Shown piece after piece: positions 24 through 8,265 of a stretch of DNA of 64,000 bases. The notes beneath the pieces were generated by a model. That model was given only the letters and a program-made list of their open reading frames with translations. It ran no database searches and had not been told where the DNA came from. How positions within the stretch are numbered: position 1 is the stretch's first letter; every line of letters begins with the position of its first letter. The stretch comes from Myxococcaceae bacterium (GTDB taxonomy: Bacteria > Myxococcota > Myxococcia > Myxococcales > Myxococcaceae): positions 1 to 64,000 of the forward strand of contig RPRB01000007.1 of assembly GCA_003818285.1 (NCBI GenBank), in the 5' to 3' direction. The position numbers and the translations under genes are program-made.

Positions 24-548
24 ATGCGAAAGTCAGCAGCAGTGCTCGCGCTCGTCCTGGGCGCGGGCGCAGCGTGGGCGCTCACCCCGGGGGACCGGGT
101 GTACGTGCGTGGGCGCGACGTGGCCGTGCTCCAGAGCACAGCGACCAGCGCGGCGACCCTGGTCAAGCTCCAGCCCGGTGACGCCGTGGTCTGGCGCGGC
201 GCCGACAAGAAGAAGCCGACCTGGCACCGGGTGGAGACGGCCGGGAAGAGCGGCTTCGTCTACTTCGCCAACCTGTCGACCACTCCGCCGGCGTCCGAGC
301 TGCTCACCTCTCCGGCCGGGGCGAAGAAGGTCGACGCTCAGGCCTTCGCCAGCTCCGGCGCCGCCGGAAAGGCGCTCACCGAGGGAGCCATCCGCTACGG
401 CAACCAGGAGGAAAAGAACAAGGGTGAGCTGCGTCCCACGATGAAGGAGACGGTTCGCCAGACGCAGACGCTCGAGGCGATCGCCGCCCAGCGCACCGGC
501 GAGGAGATCGCTGCGCAGGCGGACCGGGTCACGGGAGAGCAGCGATGA
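24..548 (+). CDS. exported SH3-like domain protein
   Basis: A 174-residue protein with a Sec signal peptide (residues 1-19, cleavage likely after AWA). A beta-rich stretch follows at about residues 21-86 (VYVRGRDVAVLQSTAT ... GFVYFANLS) that looks like a bacterial SH3 fold, usually a cell-wall or protein-binding module. The rest is charged and helical. The start is supported by GGAGGG about 7 bases upstream of ATG. Its stop overlaps the start of the M48 protease by ATGA, so the two are translationally coupled, and the SH3-like protein may act with that protease in the envelope. The SH3 assignment is from sequence pattern only; no enzymatic motif is seen. Confidence 0.75.
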   Translation: MRKSAAVLALVLGAGAAWALTPGDRVYVRGRDVAVLQSTATSAATLVKLQPGDAVVWRGADKKKPTWHRVETAGKSGFVYFANLSTTPPASELLTSPAGAKKVDAQAFASSGAAGKALTEGAIRYGNQEEKNKGELRPTMKETVRQTQTLEAIAAQRTGEEIAAQADRVTGEQR

Positions 549-1627
549 GGCGCGCGCTCCTGTCCCTGAGCATGGTCGCGCTCGTGGCCTGTGCCGCGGC
601 CTCGGGCCTCATGCGGGGCGACACCAACTCGATCGTCAGCGGCGTCGCCGAGTCGACCGGCACCGTGGTGGGGCTGACCCAGGACCTGTCCAAGTGCGAC
701 CAGATCGGCGCGGCCGAGGTCACCTTCGACGAGGAGCGGACCATCGGCGGCGCGGTGGCGCTCAACTGGGTGCAGCTGGGGGGCGGGCTTCTGGTGGACG
801 TGCCCACCGGCGACGCGGCTGCGCTCGCGAATCCCAAGGCGCTCCGCATCCAGGACACGCCACGGAACCAGCTCCACAAGTACCTGAACGTGGTGGGGAA
901 GAACCTGGCCTCCCGCTCGACCCGGCCCACGCTGCAGTGGACCTTCGGGGTGCTCGACTCGGAGGTAGTGAACGCGGTCTCCGCCCCCGGCGGCTACGTC
1001 TTCGTGACTCGCGGGCTCCTGAAGCGGGTGAGCAACGAGGCGGCGCTGGCGGGCGTCCTCTCCCACGAGATCGCCCACGTCACGCGCAAGGACGCCTTCG
1101 CCATCTACCAGAAGACGAAGGTGGACCAGTGCAAGAGCCTCGCGTACGCCAAGGCCGGCCAGAAGGAGGGGGCGGCCGTGCTCCGCTCCTACACGCCGGG
1201 GTTCATCAACCAGGCCTACGCCGCGCTCCAGGCGTTCAGCGGCGGCGCGCTGGACCTGAACGCCGCGGCGAACAACGCGCTGCTCACCCTGTTCAGCGAC
1301 GAGTTCGTCCACCGCTACCTCGAGGGCGGCTACGCACGCGACCAGGAGATCCAGGCGGACGCCACCGGCCTCGAGATCACCGTGGCGTCGGGGTACAGCC
1401 CGCGCGGCTTCGTGGACTTCATCGGCGCGCTGCCCCCGGGGCAGAACTTCTTCGCCCACCACCCCGCGCCGAGTGACCGGGTGGCCTCGATGAAGCTGCT
1501 GCTCGGCAAGACGCGAATGGCGAGCATGAGCTCGCCCGCGCCCGGCTCACCGTTCTCGCCGTTCAACCAGGACGTGTCCCAGCTGCCGCTTCTCCCGCTG
1601 CACGACGAGCTCGCGGCAGCCCGCTGA
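545..1627 (+). CDS. M48-family metalloprotease, lipoprotein
   Basis: A 360-residue zinc metalloprotease. A lipobox (LVAC, Cys16) follows a short signal peptide, so it should be membrane-anchored on the periplasmic side. The zinc motif HEIAH is at residues 174-178. The third ligand is probably Glu268 in the EIQAD segment, as in M48 family members that cleave misassembled envelope proteins (BepA/LoiP type). The catalytic domain spans about residues 100-330. ATGA overlap with the preceding SH3-like gene indicates an operon. It converges with pomX, 73 bases away. Substrates cannot be inferred from sequence. Confidence 0.9.
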   Translation: MRRALLSLSMVALVACAAASGLMRGDTNSIVSGVAESTGTVVGLTQDLSKCDQIGAAEVTFDEERTIGGAVALNWVQLGGGLLVDVPTGDAAALANPKALRIQDTPRNQLHKYLNVVGKNLASRSTRPTLQWTFGVLDSEVVNAVSAPGGYVFVTRGLLKRVSNEAALAGVLSHEIAHVTRKDAFAIYQKTKVDQCKSLAYAKAGQKEGAAVLRSYTPGFINQAYAALQAFSGGALDLNAAANNALLTLFSDEFVHRYLEGGYARDQEIQADATGLEITVASGYSPRGFVDFIGALPPGQNFFAHHPAPSDRVASMKLLLGKTRMASMSSPAPGSPFSPFNQDVSQLPLLPLHDELAAAR

Positions 1628-1700: not shown

Positions 1701-3050
1701 TCAGCGCCGCGCGGCTTCGGTGAGCGCGCGGTGGACGGACTCGAGCGCCTTCCGGGCCTCGAGCAGCTCGGCGCGCTCGGCGGTGAGATCCGCCACCTGG
1801 CGGGCGAGGGTGTCCCGCTCGGTGCTCAGCACTTCCACGCTCTTGCGAAGCTGCGTCCCGTCGTCGCGAAAGCGCTCGAGCTCTCCGGCCAGCCGCTCCT
1901 CCTCGGAGAGACTGTCGGCGAGCTCCGCATCCTTTCGCGTCATATCGGCTGCCAGCCGCTCGCGCTGCTCTTGCTCCGCCGCCGCCTGCGTCCGCGCCTC
2001 CTGCACCGCGAGGAGCGCCTCGTCCCGCTCGCCCTCGACCGACTGCAGCTCGCGCTCCAGCTCCGACAGCAAACCCGCGCGCTCCTCCATCTGCGCGGCG
2101 AGCCGGCGTGCCTCCTCCACCCGCCCCCGAGCCTCCTCGGTCGCACGCTCGCAGGCGCGGCGGGCCACGTCGAGGTCGTGCTGGAGGGCCGCGTTGTGCT
2201 GCTTCACCTGGGTGAGCTCGGCCTGGAGATGGGCGATGCGCTCGACGGCGAGCACGCCGGCCGCGGCCACGCTGGTCGGCAACGGCTCGGGGCGCGGGTG
2301 CTCGCGAACTCCGCGGAGCCGCTCTCGCAGACGCTCACGCCGCGTGGCGGTGTCGTCCTGCGCGGCCTGGCGCGCGACGGGGGCGGAAGCCCCGGGCGGC
2401 GGAGCGACCACCGTCTCGGTGCGCACCGTCGTCGACGGACGGCGCTCCGCCATGGCCCCGGCCACCGGAGCGGCGGGGGCAGGCATCGGCGCTGGAGGTG
2501 CGGACCGGCTGGACGGGGGCGAGGCCGGGGGCGGCGAAGAGGCACGGCTCGGTGCCGACACGGTCGAAGGTGCCGACGAACTGCTCGAGGGCGGCGCGGC
2601 GGCGGGCGCGGCCCGACCGCTGGACCGGGAGTCCGCCCCCGCGCCGCCTCGCGCTGCCGGCGCAGGACCCGAGACGACGGTCGACGCGGACCCGTGCGCC
2701 GTGGCTCCCCGCCCCTTCGCCCCGACCGCCACGGTGACCCGTTCCTCCTCCTGGACCTCCTCGGGCTCGGCGACGGCCGCGGCCTCGCGCAGGGTCGCCT
2801 CGACCCGGCTCCGGGTGGAGACCTCCTCCTCCTCAGCCTCGCTCGCCCGCGCCGCGGCGGCGAGCACCTCGCGCGCCGTCGGTGCCTCGACCTCGGCGGC
2901 TCTGGACTGGCCGGCCACCTGGGCCGCGACCTCGTACACCCAGTCGTCCTCGGCACCGCGCGACTCGGAGGCCGCGGGGCCCGGCGGCGGCCCACCGAGC
3001 TTCAGCCTCGGCTTGGCGCGGGACACGTTCTGATCGAAGGCTTTCTTCAT
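1701..3050 (-). CDS. pomX: PomX, division-site positioning scaffold and PomZ ATPase activator
   Basis: A 449-residue protein. The N-terminus MKKAFDQNVSRAKPRLKLGG closely matches the M. xanthus PomX N-terminal peptide that stimulates PomZ ATPase activity, including Lys13 and Arg15. A Pro/Ala/Ser-rich disordered region (about 20-260) separates it from a long C-terminal coiled coil (about 266-449) expected to drive polymerisation. The chosen ATG has GGGAGAG just upstream and lies 10 bases past the pomZ stop; an in-frame ATG further upstream would sit inside pomZ and lacks support. Third gene of pomY-pomZ-pomX, the order seen in Myxococcus. In that system the complex sits on the nucleoid at midcell and promotes FtsZ ring formation. 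Confidence 0.93.
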   Translation of the reverse strand: MKKAFDQNVSRAKPRLKLGGPPPGPAASESRGAEDDWVYEVAAQVAGQSRAAEVEAPTAREVLAAAARASEAEEEEVSTRSRVEATLREAAAVAEPEEVQEEERVTVAVGAKGRGATAHGSASTVVSGPAPAARGGAGADSRSSGRAAPAAAPPSSSSSAPSTVSAPSRASSPPPASPPSSRSAPPAPMPAPAAPVAGAMAERRPSTTVRTETVVAPPPGASAPVARQAAQDDTATRRERLRERLRGVREHPRPEPLPTSVAAAGVLAVERIAHLQAELTQVKQHNAALQHDLDVARRACERATEEARGRVEEARRLAAQMEERAGLLSELERELQSVEGERDEALLAVQEARTQAAAEQEQRERLAADMTRKDAELADSLSEEERLAGELERFRDDGTQLRKSVEVLSTERDTLARQVADLTAERAELLEARKALESVHRALTEAARR

Positions 3051-3060
3051 CGGCTCTCCC

Positions 3061-4014
3061 CTACCCCGCCCGCGCGTCGGTTGCGGCCTGTACCCGGGAC
3101 TGATCCAGCCGGTGGAGCACTTCCCGGAGGAACGCATCCACGTCGTGGGCGCCCTTCGAGTCCCGCTCGGAGATGAACACCGGCACGCCCTCGCTCGAGG
3201 CCTGGGCGAACTTCGTGCACTGCCGCACCAGGGTGGTCAGTAGATATTCCGGGTAATGCTCTCGCAGCGCGGCTAGGGCTTCTTTGGCCAGCTTGAAGGT
3301 CTGGTTGAACGCGTTCACGACGATGAACACGTGGTCGAGCACGTGGTTCAGGTCCTCCTCGAGGCTCTGCACCGTCTCGAAGAGCAGCTTCAGTCCATGG
3401 AACGACAGGAAGTCGGGCAGCACCGGGACGAAGAGGTCCTCCGCCACCATCAGCGCGTTCAGGTTCAGCAGCCCGAAGGACGGTGGCGCGTCGAAGACCA
3501 TCACGTCGTAGCGGTCCTCGATCTCCTCCACCGCCTTGCGGAGCTTGAACTCGCGGCCCGCCATCGGCATCAACGCCAGGTCCACGGTGCTCATGCCCAG
3601 GTTGCTGGGGACGAAGTCGAGGTTGGGCAGCGGGGTGTGCTGGATCGCCTCGGACAGTGGTGCCTTGCGGACCAGCACATGGAGCAGCGTCTTCTCGAAG
3701 TCCTCGCCCTCGTACCCGAGGCACTTCGTGGCGTGGCCCTGACTGTCCAGATCCACCAGCAGCACCGAGTAGCCCAGCTCCGCCAGGCGATAGGCGTATG
3801 AGGTGGAGAGCGAGGTCTTCCCCGTTCCGCCCTTGAAGTTGAGGAACAGCTGCTTCCGGTGGCCGATCGGCCGCGGGTGGATCCGCAGCGCCTTGCGCAG
3901 CGCCCAGAGGTCCTGCGCAGAGTAGCTGTGCTGGTCCAGCGCCGACCGGAGCGCCTTCGACGGAATCCCGAGGAGCTCGGCCGTCGTCTTGGGGGTGTAG
4001 ATGGGAAGATCCAT
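3061..4014 (-). CDS. pomZ: PomZ, ParA/MinD-type ATPase for division-site positioning
   Basis: A 317-residue ParA-family ATPase with a ~50-residue N-terminal extension ahead of a deviant Walker A motif, KGGTGKT (61-67). Gly62 and Lys66 (nucleotide binding), Asp90 (hydrolysis; VDLDSQGH) and Lys268 (non-specific DNA binding) fall at exactly the residue numbers characterised in M. xanthus PomZ. Walker B-like VMVFDAPPS is at 171-179. ATP-bound dimers bind the nucleoid and are released when PomX, PomY and DNA stimulate hydrolysis. It is flanked by pomY (20 bases upstream) and pomX, with no ParB gene or parS site visible, which argues against a chromosome or plasmid partition role. Confidence 0.95.
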   Translation of the reverse strand: MDLPIYTPKTTAELLGIPSKALRSALDQHSYSAQDLWALRKALRIHPRPIGHRKQLFLNFKGGTGKTSLSTSYAYRLAELGYSVLLVDLDSQGHATKCLGYEGEDFEKTLLHVLVRKAPLSEAIQHTPLPNLDFVPSNLGMSTVDLALMPMAGREFKLRKAVEEIEDRYDVMVFDAPPSFGLLNLNALMVAEDLFVPVLPDFLSFHGLKLLFETVQSLEEDLNHVLDHVFIVVNAFNQTFKLAKEALAALREHYPEYLLTTLVRQCTKFAQASSEGVPVFISERDSKGAHDVDAFLREVLHRLDQSRVQAATDARAG

Positions 4015-4034
4015 CTCGTCAGTCCTCGTGCTCG

Positions 4035-5822
4035 TCAGGCGACGAACAGCTTCGCCCCGCGCCGGACCACCTGCCCGCGCGCCGTGAGAAGTGCTGCGGC
4101 CTCGATCACCCGTTCGTCTGTCACCCCCAGCTGGGTGGCCAGGTCCAGCACCGTTCGGCCCCGCATCGAGGTGCGGAGCTCGGAGGTGATCTGGAGGCAG
4201 AGGGCCTCGTCCGCATGAAGGCCGCCGGCGCCGAGCTCCCGGGGGGCCGCCGGCGGAAGCGCCACCTCGATGGGTGCGGGCCAGCCCGCCACCCCCGCGC
4301 CGGACGCCGCCGCCGGGTCCTCGAGCTCCGCCGGCAGCTCGATCTCGGGCGCTGGCTCGGGCGACGACGGCTCGGGCTCGGGCTCGGGGCGGGGTGGAGC
4401 ACGCGTGGCCAGGCCGAGGGGTCTCGCGCGCTGGGAGAGCGGCACTGGCGCCACGGTCGCCAGGCGCCGGACCTCGCGCCGGCGCTCCTCGTCGGAGAGG
4501 GTCGCGACGTGCCCCACGTCCATGCCCAGAAGCCCGGAGAGGCTCCGGGCGGCGGCGCGCCGGACCCCGAGGTGGGGATCCTCCAGCGCTCCGAGCAGCC
4601 GCGAGCGGGCCAGCTCGCCCCCGGCCGCTCCCGCGGCGAGGACCGCCAGCCGGCGGACCTCGGGATCCGGGTCCCGCGACACCTGCCGCTCCAGCTCGAG
4701 CATCCGCTCCGGCCCGAGCGACACCGCGAGGAGCGCCGTGCGCCGGCGGACCGAGGCGTCCGGGTCGTGCGCCGCTCGCGACAGATGCGCCGGGGCGGCG
4801 TCCGGATCCAGGTGGGTGATGGCCCGGAGCGCGGCGATGCGCACCACGGGCTCGGGCGCGCTCAGGAGCGGCTCGACCACCGCGGCTCCCTCGCGGCTGG
4901 CCAGCGCGCGGAATGCCTCCAGGAACGCCACCAGCACCGTTTCGTCCCGCTCCGCGTGGAGAGCCACCGCGAGCGCCGGCGAGGCGGCGCGATCTCCGAG
5001 CGTGCGGAGGCGCTCGGCAGCGCGGGAGCGCGCGGACGGGTCGGGGCTGGACAGCTCGCGGATGGAGAAGCCGAACAGGCTCTCCTCCCCGAGCCGCGGG
5101 CTGGGGGGGACGGCAAGGCGGCCCTGCTCGAACAGCCGTTCGGCCTCGCGGGTCACCGCGAGGAGAGCCGCCGCCGAAGGCACCGCTCCCTCCGCGAAGA
5201 GCGCCGGCCGCTCCCGCGCGGAGGCCCCTGCGGGCGGCGAGGAGGGACGCAGCGAGGGGCGCGCGGGGACCCCCGGAACCGGCGTTGCCCCGGGGGCGGA
5301 GAGTCCGTTCCGGGCCACGTCGCTGTGCACCGCCACCGTCTCCAGCGCGGGCGCCTCGGCTCGCACCGAGTCCAGCGACCCGGATGGTGCGGAGCCGCCG
5401 TCGAGGAGCCGGGAGGGAGGCGTCGCGACCTCGAGCGCCGGGGTTCGCAGCGCGATCGCCTCGGCCCGAAGGTCGGAGATGAATCCGGCGAGGTCGAAGT
5501 CGAGCCCGGCCGAGGTCCCCTGGATGCGTGACGCCTCCAGGACCTTCCCCATCAGGCCGGCCCGCTCGGCGCGCATCGCGTCGAGCACCCGGGCGCCCTC
5601 CTCGCGATCACGGTGGGCCCGGCCGAGCTCCACCTCCAGCTCGGCCACGCGGCGGCGGAGCTCGACCTCGCGCTGGGAGGCAGAGGCCAGATCGGCGCGC
5701 AGGGCGTCTGCCTCCGACCGGAGGGTCGCCGCATCCGCCTGGAGCGTCTCCGAGCGTGCCTCGAAATAGACGATCTTCTCGAGCGCACTCCGGAGGAGCG
5801 CCTCTGCCCGTCCATCGCTCAC
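4035..5822 (-). CDS. pomY: PomY, HEAT-repeat division-site positioning protein
   Basis: A 595-residue protein with an N-terminal coiled coil (about 5-100), a disordered linker, and HEAT-type helical repeats (about 250-440; units such as DPDASVRRRTALLAVSLG and DPDPEVRRLAVLAAGAAG). A Pro/Glu-rich segment (about 460-500) follows, then a compact helical C-terminus (about 530-595) resembling a winged-helix fold. Coiled coil, HEAT and Pro-rich order matches M. xanthus PomY, which bridges PomX and PomZ, stimulates PomZ hydrolysis and helps FtsZ nucleation. The start is GTG with a weak ribosome site. First gene of the pomYZX operon. The C-terminal domain is the least expected part. Assignment rests on architecture plus neighbours, since HEAT repeats alone are not diagnostic. 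Confidence 0.85.
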   Translation of the reverse strand: MSDGRAEALLRSALEKIVYFEARSETLQADAATLRSEADALRADLASASQREVELRRRVAELEVELGRAHRDREEGARVLDAMRAERAGLMGKVLEASRIQGTSAGLDFDLAGFISDLRAEAIALRTPALEVATPPSRLLDGGSAPSGSLDSVRAEAPALETVAVHSDVARNGLSAPGATPVPGVPARPSLRPSSPPAGASARERPALFAEGAVPSAAALLAVTREAERLFEQGRLAVPPSPRLGEESLFGFSIRELSSPDPSARSRAAERLRTLGDRAASPALAVALHAERDETVLVAFLEAFRALASREGAAVVEPLLSAPEPVVRIAALRAITHLDPDAAPAHLSRAAHDPDASVRRRTALLAVSLGPERMLELERQVSRDPDPEVRRLAVLAAGAAGGELARSRLLGALEDPHLGVRRAAARSLSGLLGMDVGHVATLSDEERRREVRRLATVAPVPLSQRARPLGLATRAPPRPEPEPEPSSPEPAPEIELPAELEDPAAASGAGVAGWPAPIEVALPPAAPRELGAGGLHADEALCLQITSELRTSMRGRTVLDLATQLGVTDERVIEAAALLTARGQVVRRGAKLFVA

Positions 5823-5884: not shown

Positions 5885-7468
5885 CTAGCGGGCAGGCGTG
5901 GCCTGCTGAGGGGAAGCCTCCGTCATTCCGGGCCCCTGGGCCACGTTCTTCCCCGGGGTCGGCGGGGCTAGCGGGACGTACGCCTCGGCGAGGCTCACCG
6001 TGGTCTCGCCCACCTTCGGAGAGAGGCGCTCCACCAGGTCACCCATGCTGCTGGCCAGATCGGTCTGGGCGGCGGCGCCACGCCGGAGCTGTCGCTCGAG
6101 CTTGCCCATGTGCTCGTAGTGCTCGCGGTCCCGCGCGGCCAGCCCCTGCGCGGTCCGCAGCTCCAGGGCGAGCCCGGCGTTCGCCCGGAGAGCGTCCAGC
6201 ACGCGCTCGACCAGCACCAGGCCGTCGGCGTCCAGGCCGCCCTTCGGGTACGCCTTGAGCCCGAACCTGCCGCCCACCCAGACCCGGCCCAGCTCGCCGA
6301 ACCCCTCCGGCTGCCCCTCGGGGAGGTCCTCCAGCACCAGCGCCGGCGAGCTCCGGACCGGAAAGGCCGGTGACATCACCTCGAAGATCAGCGCACCGTC
6401 GGTCCGGGCCCGGGCGACGGCCACCGCCCCGTCGAAGGGGAAGAAGGGGTCGATGGCGCCCTCGAGGCCGGAGACCAGCCGGGTCCGCGCCTTGCGGTCC
6501 AGGGCGGAGACCTCGATCCGCTCCCGCCGCGGACTCTTCTTGAGGGTGGTCATCATGTCGCGCACCTGGTCGATGGCGACCACCACGTTGAGCGGCGTGT
6601 TGCCGGCGTAGCCCGCGTGGTACACGCCGACCAGCTCGAACTCGCCGGTGCGGCAGGAGACGCCGAGCACCGGTGACCCCGAGTTGCCGGGCGACAGCTG
6701 CGCGTCCACCACGAAGTCGACGTGGTCCCAGTCCTTCTCGTCGTCGTGGTCGTAGGTGGAGACCACCTTGCCCACGTTGGTGGCCTTGAACGCGCCGAGG
6801 GGGAAGCCGCGCACGTCGACCACGTTACGCTCCTTGAGGTCCGCCGAGCGCCCCACCTTCCAGGGCAGGATCGGCAGGAGCGCGTGCGCCTTGAGCACCG
6901 TCATGTCCATCGACTTGTCGGTGACCACCCGCAGGAGCGGGATGTCGTCGCGGTCGTAGGTGTCGCGCTCGGACTCGACGATCCTGACCGCGTCGGAGAT
7001 CCGCTTGCACCCGGGTGGCACGTCGTCGACCTTGTGCTCGTCGTCGGTGACGGCGGGCCACTCGGCCACGTGCTGGTTGGTGAGGATGTACGTCTCGCCG
7101 TTCTGTTGCCGGTAGCCGAAGCCGGTGCCGTGGGCGAGCGCCTTCCGGCGGACCCGCCGCACGTTGCCGTCGCCGGAGTAGCTGAGGCACTCGTAGGTCG
7201 CGGTGGTGCGGATGGCGTAGACCCACGATTGCGACTGGGGCTTCTGCTCGGCCTCGCGCGCGGCCGGCGACAGCGCGGCGAAGTCGTCGGCATACGCCCC
7301 AGCGCAATACGCGCCCTTGGTGAATCCGACCCCGCCCAGGCCACCCCGAGCGCGGACCCGCGGGGCGACGACGAGGGTCACCGCGACGAAGGTCAACGCC
7401 AGCCCCGCAACCGCCCCGCGCTTCATCCAGATTCGCCTCCGGGCGCCGGCCTCGGTCTCTTGGTCCAT
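5885..7468 (-). CDS. membrane-anchored trypsin-like serine protease
   Basis: A 527-residue protein with an N-terminal membrane helix (about 16-35), placing the rest in the periplasm. It has a trypsin/DegP-type fold with a complete catalytic triad: His133 (TNQHVA), Asp188 (SMDMTVLKA) and Ser263 (SPGNSGSPV). The C-terminal half (about 320-500) has no PDZ motif that I recognise and ends in a Pro/Gln-rich tail. ATG start; no good ribosome site. It stands alone between pomY and a divergent small exported protein. A role in envelope proteolysis is inferred from localisation; the substrate is unknown. Confidence 0.85.
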   Translation of the reverse strand: MDQETEAGARRRIWMKRGAVAGLALTFVAVTLVVAPRVRARGGLGGVGFTKGAYCAGAYADDFAALSPAAREAEQKPQSQSWVYAIRTTATYECLSYSGDGNVRRVRRKALAHGTGFGYRQQNGETYILTNQHVAEWPAVTDDEHKVDDVPPGCKRISDAVRIVESERDTYDRDDIPLLRVVTDKSMDMTVLKAHALLPILPWKVGRSADLKERNVVDVRGFPLGAFKATNVGKVVSTYDHDDEKDWDHVDFVVDAQLSPGNSGSPVLGVSCRTGEFELVGVYHAGYAGNTPLNVVVAIDQVRDMMTTLKKSPRRERIEVSALDRKARTRLVSGLEGAIDPFFPFDGAVAVARARTDGALIFEVMSPAFPVRSSPALVLEDLPEGQPEGFGELGRVWVGGRFGLKAYPKGGLDADGLVLVERVLDALRANAGLALELRTAQGLAARDREHYEHMGKLERQLRRGAAAQTDLASSMGDLVERLSPKVGETTVSLAEAYVPLAPPTPGKNVAQGPGMTEASPQQATPAR

Positions 7469-7656
7469 GGGTGCGTCCCGCGGCCGTTCAGTTTAGGCCC
7501 GACGGTCCCGCAACGCGCGCCCGGGGGTGAGTGTTCCTGCCCCCCCCCACGGCGTGACATCAGCCACTCGCTGCGTCATCGCCCAGGAGACGCTGCTTGA
7601 CACTCCGGTGCGGCTGCCGGAGCGTCCCGCGCCGTCCCACCTCAGGGGAGACCCGC

Positions 7657-7926
7657 ATGAACTTCCGCACCCTGGCCCTCGCCTCCGCGCTCGTGCTGCC
7701 TGCAGCCGCGCTCGCCGACCACACCTACCAGGTCACCGGTCCGGTGGTGTCCTCGACGCCGGAGTCGATCACCGTGAAGAAGGGCAGCGAAAACTGGGAG
7801 ATCGCCCGTGGCGACGACAAGACCGACGTCCAGCCCGGCGACAAGGTCACGGTCACCTACACGATGACGGCGAAGAAGGTCGAGGTGAAGGCGGCCTCGA
7901 GTGGCACCAAGAAGGCGAAGAAGTAG
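7657..7926 (+). CDS. small exported protein of unknown function
   Basis: An 89-residue protein with a clear signal peptide (residues 1-20, cleavage after ALA). The mature ~69-residue domain is predicted all-beta (DHTYQVTGPVVSSTPESITV ... KVTVTYTMTAKKVEVK) with a Lys-rich tail (KKAKK). GGGGAG about 7 bases before the chosen ATG supports it over an upstream in-frame ATG. The sequence pattern could be a small OB or DUF5666-like barrel, but I see no catalytic residues. Solitary gene. Confidence 0.75.
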   Translation: MNFRTLALASALVLPAAALADHTYQVTGPVVSSTPESITVKKGSENWEIARGDDKTDVQPGDKVTVTYTMTAKKVEVKAASSGTKKAKK

Positions 7927-8265
7927 CCGGACGGCTGCACGAGTCGCCGGAGCACTTGGTTGAGCGCTGCCTCTGTCGAGCAGCGCTGTCCGTGATGCGG
8001 GACCAGTCGCCGGCGTCGGTCGGTCGGCTCGGAGGAGAGGACAGCCTCGGCGAGGCGCAGCGCCTCCTCGAGAACCAGGGGGTGGAGAGCCGCCAGGCGA
8101 AGATGATCTTTGTGCACCTCGTCCGGGAAGGACCCGCCTGCCGGAGATGTGGTGCCGGCCTCGAGGGCTCCGGGCTGGTCCGGTGACCCGCGGCGAGGCC
8201 TCCTTCGCCGCGTCGCTGCGATGCGCCGAACCTCGTCTGGTGAGCAGGGACGGTCGCGACGCTCC
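7927..8265. other. gene-free stretch, about 340 bases
   Basis: No convincing coding frame on either strand; open frames here are Arg-rich shadows without ribosome sites. No RNA gene, palindrome or T-tract terminator stands out. It lies between two convergent genes, so factor-dependent termination is likely. Confidence 0.5.

Follow-up and report, generated by a model that had tools for sequence, protein, structure and literature searches.

Myxobacteria use the genes pomX, pomY and pomZ to place the division site at midcell and, as known from Myxococcus xanthus, the Pom system stimulates Z-ring formation, whereas Min inhibits it. ParABS systems require ParB and parS, and move their cargo over the nucleoid. 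The co-occurrence of PomX, PomY and PomZ in Cystobacterineae has been published (PMC7993993). In M. xanthus, residues 496–682 of PomY carry an ATPase-activating function that requires both a basic part of the linker and the globular domain, and a nine-residue helix (alpha5) has been modelled into a groove of the PomZ dimer (PMC13170346). This recent model of PomZ activation by PomY leans on alpha5 and on the conservation of its groove in PomZ; the alpha5 logo draws on nine orthologs with a predicted helix, which implies that other orthologs lack it (PMC13170346).

We are highly confident that the Myxococcaceae bacterium described here, an uncultured relative of Myxococcus, encodes PomXYZ orthologs that most likely make up a working system, in which activation of PomZ would proceed as in M. 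xanthus for PomX and would be altered in detail for PomY.

Gene Cluster and Distribution

The window (the whole stretch of 64,000 nucleotides that was analysed) belongs to a 5.77 Mb genome in 502 contigs, reported as 100% complete and 3.5% contaminated. It contains three adjacent minus-strand genes in the order pomY-pomZ-pomX (Table 1), and the complete cluster claimed in the preliminary description is correct in location, order and residues, with all three products aligning to the M. xanthus proteins. The genes are separated by 20 bp (pomY/pomZ) and 10 bp (pomZ/pomX), and the third-position GC of the three frames (0.89–0.91) is as high as in real genes. The start of pomX is the ATG at 3050, not the first ATG of the open frame (3137), and from there the protein opens with the peptide MKKAFDQNVSRAKPRLKLG. 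A scan for sigma-70 promoters and terminators gave no match, such a scan being uninformative in a GC-rich host.

Table 1. Positions in the window of the pom genes and of the protein regions that they encode.
Feature	Position	Strand	Description
pomY	4035..5822	-	595 aa, GTG start at 5822; similar to M. xanthus PomY
pomZ	3061..4014	-	ParA/MinD-superfamily ATPase, 317 aa; G62, K66, D90, K268
pomX	1701..3050	-	449 aa, ATG at 3050
PomX N-terminal activating peptide, aa 1-22	2985..3050	-	K13 and R15 present
PomX conserved C-terminal region, aa 230-449	1704..2363	-	coiled-coil part by M. xanthus homology, alignment
PomY coiled-coil helix, aa 3-101	5520..5816	-	AlphaFold2 model, pLDDT mostly >90
PomY HEAT repeats, aa 217-455	4458..5174	-	Pfam HEAT_2 2.1e-16 and AlphaFold2 model
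PomY linker, aa 456-535	4218..4457	-	disordered, acidic (net -6), without alpha5 helix
PomY C-terminal globular domain, aa 537-594	4041..4214	-	three helices and two strands; 47% identity to M. xanthus

Convergent with pomX are genes for a small exported protein (24–548, plus strand) and an M48 metalloprotease (545–1627, plus strand), a pair that lies near the pom cluster in 27 of the 80 fetched loci, M. xanthus included. An HtrA-like serine protease gene (5885–7468, minus strand) is situated immediately upstream of pomY and, among the fetched loci, is common only to the congener Myxococcaceae bacterium Chersky_276 (L009).

Across 147 genomes of the class, most members of the order have a PomZ ortholog (1e-70 or lower); the next matches are ParA-type proteins (about 1e-39 to 1e-33, 30–36% identity), and these are the only matches in some genomes, many of them incomplete, and in both genomes of the other order. 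PomZ lies between PomY and PomX in nearly every locus with sufficient contig and with proteins detectable by a single sequence. With a PomZ ortholog in most genomes searched in the order, the single-copy cluster is unremarkable for this organism, and in itself it adds one more myxobacterium to the known PomXYZ system. The nearest relative by PomZ is Chersky_276 (94% identical); the class-wide search found one other genome of the genus (PomZ identity 93%). The record of locus L039 is titled Comamonas sp. KCTC 72670, and its PomZ is 99% identical to that of M. xanthus; it is most likely a mislabelled Myxococcus-type genome.

PomX and PomZ

PomX is 54% identical to its M. xanthus counterpart over residues 161–449 (4e-74), and its C-terminal coiled coil is judged by this identity, not by structure prediction. 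The linker consists of 26% Ala and 13% Pro. The N-terminal peptide is conserved across the order; over residues 1–19 the sole differences from M. xanthus are D6/E and K17/R, and the alignment bears out the earlier claim that K13 and R15 are kept. The genome contains no second PomX-like protein. A match of PomX to SMC is a coiled-coil cross-hit, far below cut-off.

PomZ carries the AAA_31 domain (Pfam, 3.6e-45) and is 71.5% identical to M. xanthus PomZ (locus L033) over 312 aa (2e-152). Positions 62, 66, 90 and 268 are G, K, D and K, at the same numbers as in M. xanthus, as the preliminary description had read them, and the residues modelled as touching the PomX peptide are kept save for E248A and F257Y. 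The N-terminal extension of PomZ (aa 1–55; 3850–4014, minus strand) looks helix-turn-helix-like; no Pfam family passes for this segment, and a weak MerR-type resemblance is below cut-offs in M. xanthus, with nothing in the window protein. In several more distant PomZs, the alignment begins only at about residue 23–31. The DNA-binding Lys268 is replaced by Arg in a large group of Myxococcaceae (L015-L019, L021, L038, L045, L046, L048-L052, and L057) and by Gln in L085.

PomY Architecture and Tail

PomY matches its M. xanthus ortholog in two blocks, over residues 1–465 (45%, 5e-73) and over the last 57 aa (47%, 6e-11). An AlphaFold2 model built from 39 orthologs shows a long helix (3–101), HEAT repeats (217–455), and an H-H-H-E-E domain (537–594), with pLDDT mostly >90 and disordered joins; coiled coil, HEAT repeats, and C-terminal domain are the architecture described for M. 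xanthus PomY (PMC13170346). A match to phycobilin lyases is a HEAT cross-hit, far below cut-off.

The alpha5 helix of M. xanthus PomY was located as PVQAALVAM. The window PomY lacks it: there the best profile score (-5.1) is no better than that of shuffled sequence, and AlphaFold2 predicts no helix in residues 466–536. Strict alpha5 (27.8 bits) is present in 18/18 sequences from Myxococcus, Corallococcus, Pyxidicoccus, and Citreicoccus (one of them titled Comamonas and Myxococcus-like), a divergent form occurs in Hyalangium and a relative (SARVALAAMG, SVRTALAIMG), and the taxa with either form make up one group on the PomZ tree. Two profile candidates for a hidden alpha5 in other tails, PVKAKLVAS in L015-L021 and PVQAAAVAR in L057, were rejected as weak and far from the globular domain. 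This clade pattern, with the strict form in the Myxococcus–Corallococcus group only, is a result of the present analysis; alpha5 is a feature of some orthologs only, and so is not defining for PomXYZ.

Of 39 orthologs, the PomYs of the window and of the congener have the lowest net charge in the linker that joins the HEAT repeats to the globular domain, each at -6 (80 and 82 residues, respectively); values in the other 37 run from -2 to +13, the latter being that of M. xanthus, whose linker has 210 residues. The pI of whole PomY is 5.7 in the window vs. about 9.3 in M. xanthus (PMC10307791), and PomX has an acidic pI in either organism (5.5 and 4.9, respectively). Because PomY is acidic here like PomX, the contrast in charge between the two proteins of M. 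xanthus is not a general feature. Elsewhere, L016 has a PomY (6076–7989 in that locus) whose linker consists largely of AQQSVAQ-type tandem repeats, and a segment is duplicated in L021, suggesting repeat expansion as a route to changes in linker length.

The preliminary description had considered the PomY tail free to vary. The difference in the tail is real, but "free" is too simple, as this segment is the ATPase-activating region of M. xanthus PomY (PMC13170346); with alpha5 restricted to a single clade and the sign of the linker charge reversed, the difference may be functional.

Activation of PomZ by PomY

The PomZ residues modelled as contacting alpha5 (L139, L146, A147, F180, L182, L185, L210, and D221) are all identical in the window PomZ. 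Among 58 PomZs from lineages that have neither strict nor divergent alpha5, 6/8 of these groove residues are invariant, and L146 and A147 are kept in 97 and 71%, respectively. The groove is thus almost equally conserved without alpha5, and its conservation lends no specific support to alpha5 binding. It is only modest evidence for another ligand, because conservation is just as high at 41% of PomZ core positions and the chance of the six Leu/Phe groove residues all being conserved is about 0.03. Given that alpha5 is clade-limited and the PomZ contact residues are kept, the way in which PomY activates PomZ probably differs between lineages.

A motif of the type R-x-AVAV-x-E is situated about 20–28 residues before the PomY globular domain in Anaeromyxobacteraceae and several genera of Myxococcaceae. 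It is present in 24/36 PomYs that lack alpha5 (2.8 expected from shuffling, maximum 8) and in 0/20 PomYs that have it. Because the motif was first spotted by eye, it was tested on sequences not used before, and 5 of the 14 non-redundant tails without alpha5 carried it, compared with a mean of 0.7 and a maximum of 4 in 1000 shuffles; related sequences are not independent, so these counts overstate the evidence somewhat. Our guess is that the motif contacts PomZ. Only I-E-V stands at this place in the PomYs of the window and of its congener.

An alternative, which we consider unlikely, is that PomX is the sole activator of PomZ, with PomY keeping its scaffold, condensate, and FtsZ roles and tail activation having been lost. 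The missing alpha5, the exceptionally low linker charge shared with the congener, and the need of M. xanthus PomY for both basic linker region and globular domain (PMC13170346) would all fit such a loss. However, the globular domain and the PomZ groove residues are kept, and many orthologs are without alpha5, for which a different contact is more likely than a loss of PomY activation in every one. We are similarly doubtful of the broader proposal, by which PomY of this genus lost PomZ activation, leaving PomX as the single activator, and an R-x-AVAV-x-E motif, the ancestral PomY contact with PomZ, gave way at least once within the order to alpha5 (in Myxococcus–Corallococcus) on a conserved PomZ surface.

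The reading that we prefer is that PomY still contributes to activation and, having neither alpha5 nor a basic linker, must do so in a manner that differs in detail. Since the surface for it on PomZ is kept, a contact may yet be made by another segment of the PomY tail or by the globular domain. With a shorter, oppositely charged linker and alpha5 gone, the two-activator mechanism of M. xanthus is not transferable unchanged.

Other Positioning and Partition Systems

MinC and MinE are absent from the genome (with positive controls in E. coli and others), and none of the four further ParA/MinD-type proteins scanned scores above the cut-off for MinD, the best reaching 75 bits against 213; the genome being a draft in 502 contigs, this absence of Min genes is strong, not absolute. 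There is one FtsZ and a single ParB_N protein, so that no Noc-type paralogue is left. It is very improbable that a further, unrecognised division-site system does the work despite the pom cluster: the PomY tail is divergent, but MinC, MinE and a Noc-type paralogue are missing, and PomX, PomY, and PomZ are intact and conserved in the congener.

In the PomZ tree, a branch with support 96 divides 54 PomZs from three other members of the ParA superfamily encoded in this genome; as the branches to this outgroup are very long, the tree shows separateness only. PomZ does not group with chromosome-partition ParA. A pattern search found no parS-like site in the window, and the only ParB of the genome adjoins a ParA on contig C171. 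That the ATPase is instead a chromosome- or plasmid-partition ParA with unrelated neighbours can be practically dismissed: although the fold is ParA-type and the best solved-structure relatives of PomZ are ParA/Soj proteins, PomZ belongs to a separate clade, neither parB nor parS adjoins pomZ, the genome has its own ParA–ParB pair elsewhere, and orthologs of pomX and pomY lie on both sides.

Proposed Mechanism and Meaning

An orthologous system is supported by gene order and by the similarity of all three proteins, as well as by the PomZ clade, the kept PomX peptide and contact residues, the PomY model, the absence of MinC and MinE, and the cluster of the congener. From this it can be soundly inferred that the organism divides by the PomXYZ mechanism; all dynamics, condensation, and FtsZ recruitment in the following outline are carried over from work on M. 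xanthus (PMC7993993, PMC10307791, PMC13170346). PomX would self-assemble via its C-terminal region into a single scaffold, which PomY would coat via its coiled coil and HEAT repeats, forming a condensate and recruiting FtsZ. The ATP-form PomZ dimer would bind the nucleoid (K268), and the PomX/PomY assembly would stimulate hydrolysis, by which PomZ is released and the assembly moves to midcell. The PomX N-terminal peptide (K13, R15) would activate PomZ, as in M. xanthus; activation of PomZ by PomY would be altered in detail or lost.

For the activation model of M. xanthus, the wider sample places strict alpha5 in one clade only, with the groove almost equally conserved without it. The acidic, alpha5-less PomY of this genus is a natural variant that makes PomY activation of PomZ directly testable. 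Specialist interest lies in the lineage restriction of alpha5 and in this PomY as a natural test of the model.

Comparison With Known Systems

Chromosomal ParABS, present in this genome as its own pair (C171), shares a ParA-type ATPase with the Pom system; PomZ forms a separate clade, and ParABS operates without PomX or PomY. MinCDE likewise positions the division site by an ATPase of the ParA/MinD superfamily, but its MinC and MinE are missing here. M. xanthus PomXYZ (MXAN_0634-0636) differs from the present system in a shorter PomX (404 vs. 449 aa) with a different linker sequence, and in a PomY linker that is about 210 aa long, basic, and with alpha5, compared with 80 aa, acidic, and without alpha5 here; the two agree in gene order, key PomZ residues, the PomX K13/R15 peptide, the PomX C-terminal region, and the PomY domains. 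The system of the congener Chersky_276 is closest: although the PomY linker sequence itself is divergent, the two share PomZ (94%) and PomY (77%), an acidic linker without alpha5, and the same flanking genes.
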